Shown one piece after another: positions 58,364 through 62,030 of a stretch of 64,000 nucleotides of DNA; the first letter of the stretch is position 1, and each line of letters opens with the position of its first letter. Below the pieces are notes generated by a model, which searched no databases, was not told the origin of the DNA, and was given only the letters and a program-made list of their open reading frames with translations. A program made the position numbers and the translations under genes. The stretch spans positions 1 through 64,000 of the forward strand of contig JAGWVE010000002.1 of NCBI GenBank assembly GCA_018971025.1, given 5' to 3'. The DNA comes from Bacteroidota bacterium (lineage in GTDB: Bacteria > Bacteroidota > Bacteroidia > Chitinophagales > Chitinophagaceae).

Positions 58364-58924
58364 TTATAAAGTTTGTAGCCCAAAAACGCTTACCTGTTTA
58401 CCCTTGTCTAGTGCATGCTCTTTGCGAATAAGTGTAACGGTACTGAGTTCAAAAAATGGTTGTGCTATTTTATTTACATACTGTGCCGCCAATTGTTCAA
58501 AAGCTGCGGGCGGTAATGGCGAAGTGAGTGCAAGTAAAGGTTGTTGTATCAGTTTAGAAGGCGCACATCCATAACTTTTTAAATACTGGTCCAGTACTTG
58601 CAAACTAGCAGCGAGCTGCGCAAAAGGTTGCTGGTTGGCAATACGCATAAAAATACGCCTAGAAGGTAGGGCGCCAAAACCATCGGTTACCACCTTAAAA
58701 CTTTTTTGCTGGCTAATAATACGGTGCATCCACTTGAGCAAGGTAGCTTCCATGTGCTCGGTGGTATGAAACTGAGCTAGTTCAATAACCGGCTTATCGG
58801 TAAAACCAAGGGTGCGTGCCCAATTTGTAAAATGCGCATCCGGGTAGGCTACTAACTGATACACCCCAGTGGTAGTAAGTGTTTGACCTGCAAAAACAGT
58901 GCGCTCGCTCATATGAATGTCCAT
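58364..58924 (-). CDS. Hypothetical protein, possibly a degenerate 2H phosphoesterase (2'-5' RNA ligase-like)
   Basis: Layout resembles the 2H fold (VYQLVAYPDAHFTNWA / PVIELAQFHTTEHMEATLLKWM / FKVVTDGFGALPSRRIFMRI / PLLALTSPLPP), but HxT motifs are not evident. Confidence 0.4.
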   Translation of the reverse strand: MDIHMSERTVFAGQTLTTTGVYQLVAYPDAHFTNWARTLGFTDKPVIELAQFHTTEHMEATLLKWMHRIISQQKSFKVVTDGFGALPSRRIFMRIANQQPFAQLAASLQVLDQYLKSYGCAPSKLIQQPLLALTSPLPPAAFEQLAAQYVNKIAQPFFELSTVTLIRKEHALDKGKQVSVFGLQTL

Positions 58925-58944: not shown

Positions 58945-58980
58945 TATTTTAGCATAAATTTACTAAATATTTTAGCTAAA
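58945..58980. promoter_or_regulatory. Iterated TTTA-N-TAAA elements in the umuD divergent promoter region (candidate operator)
   Basis: TATTTTAGC at 58945-58953 and 58968-58976; TTTAGCATAAA, TTTACTAAA and TTTAGCTAAA within 36 bp. Confidence 0.45.
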
Positions 58981-58998: not shown

Positions 58999-59433
58999 AT
59001 GGATAGTCAAAACTGGCAGGGGGCTGCCTATAAAGGCTCCAAAAAATTTACGCAACAAGACGTTTCTACCGCCAATGCCACCGGTTTTGGGGCAGCCACC
59101 GACGATTATATGGAACGGGGTATTGACCTCAACGAGCAGCTTATTAAAAACAAGCCCGCTACCTTCTTTTTTAGAATGAACAGCCACGCCATGACCGGCG
59201 CCGGTATTTACCCGGGCGATATTTTAATTGTAGACCGGAGCATCAGAGCCAGCAACCAAAAAATTGTAGTAGCCATTTTAAATGGTGAACTATTCATTCG
59301 GCGCTACACAGACAATGGTGTTAAAAAATTACTCTCTGCCGAAAATAAAAAATGTGCCGACATTGAAATTGATCCACTCGCCTCCTTTGCAGTATGGGGC
59401 GTGGTGATATATTGTATTCACGCTACTTTATAA
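58999..59433 (+). CDS. umuD: UmuD-like S24 family protein with apparent loss of both catalytic residues
   Basis: TGFGAATDDYMERGIDLNEQLIKNKPATFFFRMNSHAMTGAGIYPGDILIVDRSI...VVAILNGELFIRRY...FAVWGVVIYCIHA aligns by eye with E. coli UmuD; directly upstream of umuC. Confidence 0.9.
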   Translation: MDSQNWQGAAYKGSKKFTQQDVSTANATGFGAATDDYMERGIDLNEQLIKNKPATFFFRMNSHAMTGAGIYPGDILIVDRSIRASNQKIVVAILNGELFIRRYTDNGVKKLLSAENKKCADIEIDPLASFAVWGVVIYCIHATL

Positions 59434-59441
59434 TATTAGAC

Positions 59442-60737
59442 ATGATTGGCATTGTAGATTGCAATAGTTTTTATTGCTCTTGTGAACGTTTATTTAAGCC
59501 AGATTTACTACACAAACCGGTAGTGGTGTTAAGCAACAATGATGGTTGTATTATTTCAAGAAGTGACGAAGCAAAAGCAGTAGGCATAGAAATGGGGAGT
59601 CCTTTTTTTATGCAAAAAAAGAATTTAGAAAAAAACGGGGTTGCTACTTTTTCTTCTAACTATCACTTATACGGCGACTTAAGTTGGCGCGTGATGGAAA
59701 CCTTAAGAACCATGCTACCAGAGGGTTGTGTAGAAGTATACTCGGTGGATGAATCTTTTATAGACCTCGCGCATATTGAACCAGCCGCCCTACAATCTTT
59801 TACCGTTTCACTTAAAACGATTATCGAACAGTGGACCGGCATCAGTGTTTCTATTGGTGTTGCACCTACCAAAGCACTGAGTAAAGTAGCCAACAAACTC
59901 GCTAAAAAAAACAAACAAATAACAGGCTGCGTATTAATATTAAATACCGAGAAAAAAATAACACAGGCACTACAAAAAACACCCATTGGTGATGTATGGG
60001 GTATTGGTTACCAGTACGCTAAAAAATTAAATATCTACGGCATTAATACCGCTTACGATTTAACACTGCGCACCGAAAATTGGGCACACCAAGAATTAGG
60101 CGGTGTGGTAGGCGCGCGTTTGTTTAGAGAACTGAAAGGATTTCCTTGCATTGAGATGCAATCAGAAAGAATTACCAAAAACATGATTGCCACTACCCGC
60201 ATGTTTGGAAACCCCGTTACCACACTTCACGAGTTGGAAGAAGCGGTGGCTACCTATATGGCAAGGGCCGCAGAAAAACTCCGCAGACAACACGCTGCGG
60301 CGCGGGGCATTACCGTATTAATTGTACCCAAACAGGAAGTAAAAGGCAGTTATTACCGGCATGGGCCTACCAAAACCGCTAGCATCCGCTTACCGGTTGC
60401 CTCAGCGCTTACCAACGAACTGGTCAAACCAGCCCTCGAACTGGTAAGAAGCTTATTTGAAGCAGGTAAAACCTACAAAAAAGCAGGGGTTATTTTAAGT
60501 GATATCGTACCGGAATCGGTGATACAAGGAAACTTATTTGTAGCAGTGCCTAGCAGTAACGAAAAACTAGCCAAAGGGCGCGCCCTCATGGAAGCAGTAG
60601 ACAATATTAATTTTTCGATGCGGGGTGATATATTAAAATTTGCTGCTAGCGGCACAACGCGTAACTGGAAAATGCGCCAGGAAATGCGAAGTCCCCGCTA
60701 TACCACCCGCTGGGAGGAGCTTCCCCTACTCAAATAA
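59442..60737 (+). CDS. umuC: Y-family DNA polymerase V catalytic subunit UmuC
   Basis: MIGIVDCNSFYCSCERLFKPDLLHKPVVVLSNNDGCIISRSDEAKAVGI; VYSVDESFIDL; SIGVAPTKALSKVANKLAKK. Confidence 0.95.
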   Translation: MIGIVDCNSFYCSCERLFKPDLLHKPVVVLSNNDGCIISRSDEAKAVGIEMGSPFFMQKKNLEKNGVATFSSNYHLYGDLSWRVMETLRTMLPEGCVEVYSVDESFIDLAHIEPAALQSFTVSLKTIIEQWTGISVSIGVAPTKALSKVANKLAKKNKQITGCVLILNTEKKITQALQKTPIGDVWGIGYQYAKKLNIYGINTAYDLTLRTENWAHQELGGVVGARLFRELKGFPCIEMQSERITKNMIATTRMFGNPVTTLHELEEAVATYMARAAEKLRRQHAAARGITVLIVPKQEVKGSYYRHGPTKTASIRLPVASALTNELVKPALELVRSLFEAGKTYKKAGVILSDIVPESVIQGNLFVAVPSSNEKLAKGRALMEAVDNINFSMRGDILKFAASGTTRNWKMRQEMRSPRYTTRWEELPLLK

Positions 60738-60833: not shown

Positions 60834-62030
60834 ATGACTCAACCTACGCTCAACTCCAACGAATCCATACCCTCAGGTAAGAAAAAAGTAATTGTACTTG
60901 GTAGCGGCCCCAATAGAATTGGCCAAGGTATCGAGTTTGACTATTGTTGTGTACACGGCTTAATTGCTATTAAAGAGAGTGGTTACGAAGCCATCATGGT
61001 AAACTGTAACCCCGAAACCGTTTCTACCGACTTTGACATGGCCGACAAATTATATTTCGAGCCAGTATTTTGGGAACATTTATGGGAAATCATTGAACTA
61101 GAGCAACCGTATGGTATCATTGTTCAATTAGGGGGCCAAACAGCCCTTAAATTAGCCAAGCGTTTACACGAAAAAGGTATTCGCATTATTGGTACTTCTT
61201 TCGAAAGCCTAGACATGGCAGAAGATCGTGGACGTTTTAGTGATCTATTAAAAGAATTAGAAATTCCGTATCCAGCATATGGTACTGCACATACTGCCGA
61301 CGAAGCTATTGAAGTAGCCAACAAAGTTGGGTATCCTGTACTGGTAAGACCTAGCTACGTTATTGGTGGACAACGCATGCGTATTGTAATCAATGACGAA
61401 GAAGTTGAAAAAGCGGTGATCAGTTTATTAAAACACATTCCAGGTAATACGATTTTGATTGACCATTTCTTAGATCGTTGCCAAGAAGCAGAAGTGGACG
61501 CCATTTTTGATGGAGAAACTTTTCACATCATGGGTGTGATGGAACATATAGAACCAGCAGGGATTCATAGTGGCGATAGTAACGCAGTATTACCGGCGTT
61601 TAACCTAACGCCAATGATTGTAGAAAAAATGGAATTCTACAGTGAAAAAATTGCACGTGCATTAAATATCAGAGGACTTATTAATATTCAGTTTGCCATT
61701 AAAAATGGTCAAGTGTTTGTGATCGAAGCAAATCCAAGAGCTTCAAGAACAACGCCATTTATTGCAAAAGCGTATCAAATTCCGTACTTGAATATTGCGA
61801 CCAAAGTAATGCTTGGCGCCAACAAACTCACCGACTTTACCATGGATAAAAAACTAGACGGCTATGCTATTAAAGAGCCTGTATTTAGTTTTGAGAAATT
61901 CCCTGGCGTGAACAAAGAGCTAGGGCCAGAAATGAAAAGTACGGGAGAAGCCATTCGTTTTATTAAAGATTTACACGATCCTTATTTCCGCACGCTATAC
62001 AAAGAGCGTAGCATGAACTTATCTAAATAA
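60834..62030 (+). CDS. carB: Carbamoyl-phosphate synthase large subunit, C-terminal synthetase half only
   Basis: KKVIVLGSGPNRIGQGIEFDYCCVHGLIAIKESGYEAIMVNCNPETVSTDFDMADKLYFEP...VIEANPRASRTTPFIAKAYQIP; ends shortly after LGPEMKSTGEAI. Confidence 0.9.
   Translation: MTQPTLNSNESIPSGKKKVIVLGSGPNRIGQGIEFDYCCVHGLIAIKESGYEAIMVNCNPETVSTDFDMADKLYFEPVFWEHLWEIIELEQPYGIIVQLGGQTALKLAKRLHEKGIRIIGTSFESLDMAEDRGRFSDLLKELEIPYPAYGTAHTADEAIEVANKVGYPVLVRPSYVIGGQRMRIVINDEEVEKAVISLLKHIPGNTILIDHFLDRCQEAEVDAIFDGETFHIMGVMEHIEPAGIHSGDSNAVLPAFNLTPMIVEKMEFYSEKIARALNIRGLINIQFAIKNGQVFVIEANPRASRTTPFIAKAYQIPYLNIATKVMLGANKLTDFTMDKKLDGYAIKEPVFSFEKFPGVNKELGPEMKSTGEAIRFIKDLHDPYFRTLYKERSMNLSK

Follow-up and report, generated by a model that had tools for sequence, protein, structure and literature searches.

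A UmuD homologue lacking its self-cleavage residues in SOS-box-associated umuDC operons of the Chitinophagaceae

Main finding

The textbook brake on SOS mutagenesis at the post-translational level is the self-cleavage of UmuD. Within the 64,000-nucleotide stretch of DNA analyzed here (the window), a umuD-like gene at positions 58999 to 59433 (+) encodes an S24 pseudo-peptidase in which the residues for this reaction have been replaced. Comparison with its relatives suggests that the UmuD of this lineage does not cleave itself: as a pseudo-protease under SOS induction, it would form a UmuD′-like small subunit of Pol V in its uncut state, a reading to which we assign a probability of roughly 60%. 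The lineage, spread through a large family of environmental bacteria, has lost the whole self-cutting machinery and remains under strong selection and damage-inducible control; these bacteria therefore probably run an error-prone polymerase without the textbook cleavage switch.

Catalytic residues and fold of the window UmuD

The open reading frame is intact and encodes 144 amino acids. A preliminary description of the locus, made from the sequence alone, had called the product a UmuD homologue with Ala at Ser60, Arg at Lys97 and Thr-Gly at the cleavage site, and had proposed an alignment with UmuD and LexA (Pfam Peptidase_S24). The protein matched Peptidase_S24 (E value, 1.6e−19) and, at 123.5 bits, passed the curated cut-off of 110 for the NCBIfam model PRK10276, "Pol V autoproteolytic subunit." The phmmer alignment to UmuD′ (1umu; E value, 1.2e−15) was gapless between both dyad columns and placed Ala64 (codon at 59188 to 59190, +) on Ser60 and Arg101 (codon at 59299 to 59301, +) on Lys97; a MAFFT alignment with Escherichia coli K-12 UmuD was concordant. 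The E. coli scissile bond, Cys24-Gly25, aligned to Thr28-Gly29, and Thr at this position was conserved at 97% across the lineage. The window protein thus carries neither the Ser-Lys catalytic dyad nor a Cys/Ala-Gly scissile bond, and all of these residue assignments agree with the preliminary ones.

An AlphaFold2 model built from 37 lineage sequences had a mean pLDDT of about 90 in the body (residues 61 to 140) and values below 50 in the arm region (residues 1 to 51). Its closest solved structures were UmuD′ (1umu; E value, 2.9e−08; probability, 1.00) and LexA, so the structural check that had been suggested returned a high-confidence body with the S24 fold of these proteins. The window UmuD had no helix-turn-helix (HTH) match and an arm of 28 residues, and fits neither a UmuDAb-type repressor nor a Bacteroidetes LexA-like repressor with HTH and active S24 domains; the latter description fits another protein of the same genome, L002. 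By fold, partner and regulation, the window protein belongs to the UmuD superfamily. Since it lacks the catalytic features that define an autoproteolytic subunit, it was filed as a UmuD pseudo-peptidase, although databases label such proteins "autoproteolytic subunit." The loss of the dyad, in the window UmuD and in its lineage, is secure.

The N-terminal arm

Residues 1 to 28 (58999 to 59082, +) form an N-terminal arm with the conserved pattern ...K15...ANAT28-G29F30. In canonical Bacteroidota UmuDs, a hydrophobic-Pro-hydrophobic segment lies shortly before the Ala-Gly bond, comparable to TFPLF...CG of E. coli. This docking motif was found in 43 of 48 canonical UmuDs but in only 3 of 141 lineage members, and the window UmuD has no TFPLF-like segment. 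In its place, the lineage carries a different conserved sequence ending in ANATGFGAA, in which Gly29-Phe30 is invariant and the residue before Gly is mostly Thr rather than the Ala of canonical UmuD. The preliminary description had considered the protein dead at both dyad positions; the dyad loss stood, and what had been missed is that the part of the self-cleavage machinery residing in the arm is gone as well.

The 28-residue arm is conserved and M1 is invariant in the lineage alignment, which differs from the start of the phage protein HumD; the window UmuD scored 62.7 bits against the NCBIfam HumD model (cut-off, 120). An internal start yielding a protein born as UmuD′ was rejected, as no conserved start lies close to the cleavage position and several members have Ala in place of Met38.

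Two E. coli mutants provide reference points for these changes. In UmuD3A (T14A L17A F18A), the full-length arms are freed and the protein is a non-cleavable UmuD′ mimic (PMC5342242). In UmuD S60A, the docking arm stays in place and mutagenesis is strongly reduced, leaving the protein largely non-mutagenic (PMC3901139, PMC5342242). The lineage combines both types of change, namely, loss of the docking segment (as in UmuD3A) and loss of the dyad (as in S60A).

Distribution and phylogeny of the lineage

A scan of GTDB genomes identified 421 relatives, and the best 80 of these 421, which were examined, came from Sediminibacterium, Terrimonas, Niastella, other Chitinophagaceae or further Bacteroidota. 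The dyad columns were surveyed in 187 distinct UmuD-like sequences, 138 from the lineage and 49 others. All 138 distinct lineage members carried Arg in the Lys97 column, and in the Ser60 column 130 carried Ala and 8 carried Ser (A/R, 130; S/R, 8). Ser/Lys was present in 35 of the 49 sequences outside the lineage. A survey of relatives had been proposed in the preliminary description, and the replacement proved wider than was supposed there. In the phylum search, the non-lineage Bacteroidota umuC loci at which an adjacent UmuD was detected all had Ser/Lys and an AGFPSP site (15/15).

From 399 sampled Chitinophagaceae genomes, 243 had a UmuD-like match, and matches in the lineage range (E value of 1e−44 or better) occurred in approximately 200 of the 399 sampled species, by a hand count from the match table. 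The lineage formed a single clade in the UmuD tree (98% SH-aLRT). In the UmuC tree, nothing else fell under the common ancestor of its 46 lineage rows, and UmuC matches above 460 bits were confined to Chitinophagaceae in the phylum sample. These distributions indicate that the dead-dyad UmuD represents an old, family-wide Chitinophagaceae lineage and not a local variant. Whether Lys was lost before Ser was also considered, but parsimony was tied at five changes either way. A phage origin was rejected; no lineage member was found among the viral contigs searched, and phage matches, which include HumD and phage UmuDs, were all less than 60% identical.

Other Chitinophagales umuDC operons (L202, L203, L206 and L208, of family f9, and L195) also encode a UmuD without the dyad (Gln/Arg, Asp/Asp, Asn/Arg). 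The f9 UmuDs (QR, DD) and that of L195 grouped with the lineage at only 85 to 94% SH-aLRT and on long branches, and a wider search of family f9 yielded no additional close UmuC. As the f9 and L195 UmuCs grouped next to the Chitinophagaceae lineage, the loss of the dyad may be older than the family.

Second UmuD copies, each beside its own umuC and with an ATG directly before GFPSP, were identified at L200 (G185:C5) and L189 (G198:C2). Both lack the dyad (NR and AR, respectively); an SOS box lies 48 bases upstream of L200, and none precedes L189. They represent chromosomal UmuDs that are made directly in the UmuD′ form, reached independently in Chitinophagaceae and convergent on HumD of phage P1.

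SOS operator and LexA-like repressor

HTH-S24 repressors replace LexA in Bacteroidetes, and one group of them binds CTAA-N5-TTAG (PMC8565304). A palindromic match to this motif, CTAAATATTTTAG, lies at 58963 to 58975, 23 bases before the umuD start, and is the predicted operator of the Bacteroidetes non-canonical LexA. In 64 kb of sequence, the motif by itself does not reach significance; in the lineage as a whole, it was found upstream of 140 of 141 umuD genes (first-order Markov expectation, 0.84), mostly at 23 to 48 bases from the start. Only 6 of 46 canonical Bacteroidota UmuDs had this box. In silico, SOS regulation of umuD is thus indicated for the window and for 140 of 141 members.

The only other S24 protein of the window genome is L002, an HTH-S24 repressor. 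It keeps the dyad motifs GDSM and YKR (VGDSM...YKR) and a normal cleavage site, and two copies of the SOS box lie in its promoter region. A LexA-like repressor of this type is the probable regulator of the window umuDC operon.

The UmuC partner

The next open reading frame downstream of umuD is umuC (59442 to 60737, +), which encodes a full-length Pol V polymerase subunit 40% identical to E. coli UmuC. It carries D6, D103-E104, the clamp motif QGNLF, the DUF4113 segment, which constitutes the RecA-NT motif (PMC6511836), and the SPRYTTR tail, so that the operon pairs the UmuD with an intact UmuC bearing a UmuD′-binding tail. The adjoining intact UmuC reported in the preliminary description was thus complete, with its catalytic residues in place. 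In 46 lineage partners these residues were 100% conserved, and the clamp motif and tail were largely kept. Positions 4, 12, 102, 248 and 254 of UmuC are conserved in the lineage and differ from canonical partners; speculatively, they would fit an altered contact with the arm.

Proposed mechanism

The proposed mechanism starts from what the sequences show, that is, a lineage-wide loss of the dyad, the Ala/Cys-Gly bond and the docking motif, with the fold, the operon and an intact UmuC held under purifying selection. In front of the operon lies the predicted SOS operator of a Bacteroidetes LexA-like repressor that has kept a normal dyad and cleavage site and has boxes in front of its own gene. 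Without a docking motif, the arm would stay off the dead active site, and the full-length dimer would therefore resemble UmuD′, like E. coli UmuD3A, and may bind the UmuC tail directly. Activation would then consist of SOS transcription and RecA binding via the RecA-NT motif of UmuC, with no RecA-triggered proteolytic delay. Control would have moved from RecA-triggered cleavage to transcription and RecA binding by UmuC. A published in-silico model of Pol V places one UmuD′ arm in the cleft between the Palm and Little-finger domains of UmuC, near the active site (PMC11791011). The new arm conserved in the lineage probably touches UmuC close to this site. A list of the RecA-UmuD contact residues was not found in the open literature.

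More tentatively, and with less confidence than the uncut-subunit reading itself, the conserved arm may gate UmuC reversibly (for example, via RecA, the clamp or DNA). Such gating would replace the proteolytic switch across a whole family, so that mutagenesis would be controlled by transcription and binding alone, and the same loss would have recurred in related UmuDC lineages.

Alternative explanations

The absence of the dyad could in principle reflect a decaying gene, a sequencing error or a misalignment, but nothing beyond the dyad loss itself points that way, and this explanation can be set aside with near certainty. Seven MAG contigs of independent origin and nearly identical sequence carry the NSHAM/IRR variant of the window, so an assembly error is ruled out; every umuD match in the genus of the window was an open frame when stops were counted, and both dyad columns align to UmuD′ without an intervening gap. 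Among closely related pairs, dN/dS was 0.045 for the body and 0.12 for the arm, and both parts are therefore under purifying selection; together with the conserved SOS box, these ratios strongly support the earlier remark that the gene does not look like simple decay. It is very improbable that another pair, Ser/Lys or otherwise, restores catalysis within the fold so that self-cleavage persists. In the genus set, the position two residues ahead of Ala64 is always Ser (Ser62), and a few members have a Lys after Arg101, but Gly replaces Ser62 in many members of the lineage (e.g., RMKGDAM), Arg predominates at residue 102, and no Ser/Lys pair near the site was conserved across the 141 lineage sequences. 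Such a pair had been named in advance as evidence against a dead protease, as had a second canonical UmuD; in silico, none of these refuting findings was made, and the genome of the window and those of five single-contig relatives contained no second UmuD. As a candidate, a second canonical UmuD was therefore dropped, the search having recovered nothing but the HTH-S24 repressor or S24 proteins of greater length; in the single-contig relatives, the S24 set consisted of the lineage UmuD and one or two such longer proteins.

The arm might instead be clipped off by a different protease, or by the LexA-like S24 repressor acting in trans, so that UmuD′ arises along another path. An active partner can cleave E. 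coli UmuD S60A in trans (PMC5342242), and Gly29-Phe30, the would-be new N terminus, is the invariant pair of the lineage. We consider this route improbable, as the single-contig genomes hold no active UmuD and the operon no dedicated protease, and S24 peptidases would be expected to act poorly on an arm with Thr at P1 and without the docking segment. The main rival to the uncut-UmuD′ reading is a UmuC inhibited by the arm; a conserved uncut arm could block the UmuC cleft instead of helping. The protein would then be locked in the uncleaved, inhibitory UmuD state and act as a polymerase manager or checkpoint factor, with Pol V performing accurate bypass or slowing replication and not SOS mutagenesis. 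To judge from E. coli UmuD S60A, which retains its docking arm and strongly lowers UV mutagenesis, Pol V would be expected to be inhibited if only the dyad were dead, and a checkpoint role is known for full-length UmuD (PMC3901139); the arm of the lineage is, moreover, retained and constrained. This state nevertheless seems unlikely, if less so than processing by another route: 138 of 141 members have lost the docking motif by which the E. coli arm is kept in its inhibitory place, and a damage-induced polymerase that is permanently inhibited, with no releasing partner and with 100% conserved catalytic residues, is hard to explain.

Comparison with known systems

The window UmuD shares with E. 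coli UmuD the fold, a similar length, the operon order with UmuC, SOS regulation and the residues with which the UmuD′ body begins (GF...DY.E...DLN), and the two proteins are 32% identical; it differs in the Ser60-to-Ala, Lys97-to-Arg and Cys-Gly-to-Thr-Gly replacements and in the new conserved arm that stands in place of TFPLF. Canonical Bacteroidota UmuDs come from the same phylum and mostly adjoin umuC, but all three elements, the AGFPSP site, the hydrophobic-Pro-hydrophobic arm and the Ser/Lys dyad, are present in them. The Bacteroidetes non-canonical LexA (PMC8565304) shares the S24 domain, but contains an HTH domain, keeps its dyad intact and is a repressor, not a polymerase subunit. The weakly docking full-length arm and UmuD′ mimicry of the non-cleavable UmuD3A resemble our reading of the window UmuD (PMC5342242); UmuD3A is a laboratory mutant with its dyad intact, whereas the lineage is natural and its dyad is gone too.

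Bypass of cleavage is already known from HumD of phage P1, a UmuD family member that has lost the catalytic Ser and needs no self-cleavage (a database record states that it functionally complements UmuD′). In the HumD sequence (L263:307-693), the nucleophile column reads ADSHHREGI and IKR is kept at the Lys column. Unlike the window UmuD with its full conserved arm, HumD is born armless, starting with MGFPSP. As far as the literature searched shows, mostly without subscription papers, retention of a full conserved arm with loss of both dyad and docking motif has not been described. Roughly half of the Chitinophagaceae species sampled carry the lineage, in which the whole cleavage apparatus is lost and SOS induction and an intact UmuC are kept; it offers a natural experiment on the purpose of the brake. 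The arm kept uncut, the arm deleted (HumD) and the arm cut together make a comparison set for how UmuD gates UmuC.

Neighboring genes

Downstream of umuC, positions 60834 to 62030 encode a stand-alone C-terminal half of the carbamoyl-phosphate synthase large subunit (398 amino acids; model positions 540 to 925). The other half lies elsewhere in the window genome, and the split is common to three genomes of the same genus; in another member of the family (G084), a single 944-amino-acid frame holds both halves. On the other side, a divergent gene at 58364 to 58924 (−) shares the intergenic region with the SOS box and has a sub-threshold match to 2′-5′ RNA ligase (2H phosphoesterase; 13.9 bits against a cut-off of 27). 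The corresponding neighbor gene at L006 has a full 2′-5′ RNA ligase match (57.5 bits), and the gene in the window is possibly a degenerating SOS-linked partner.
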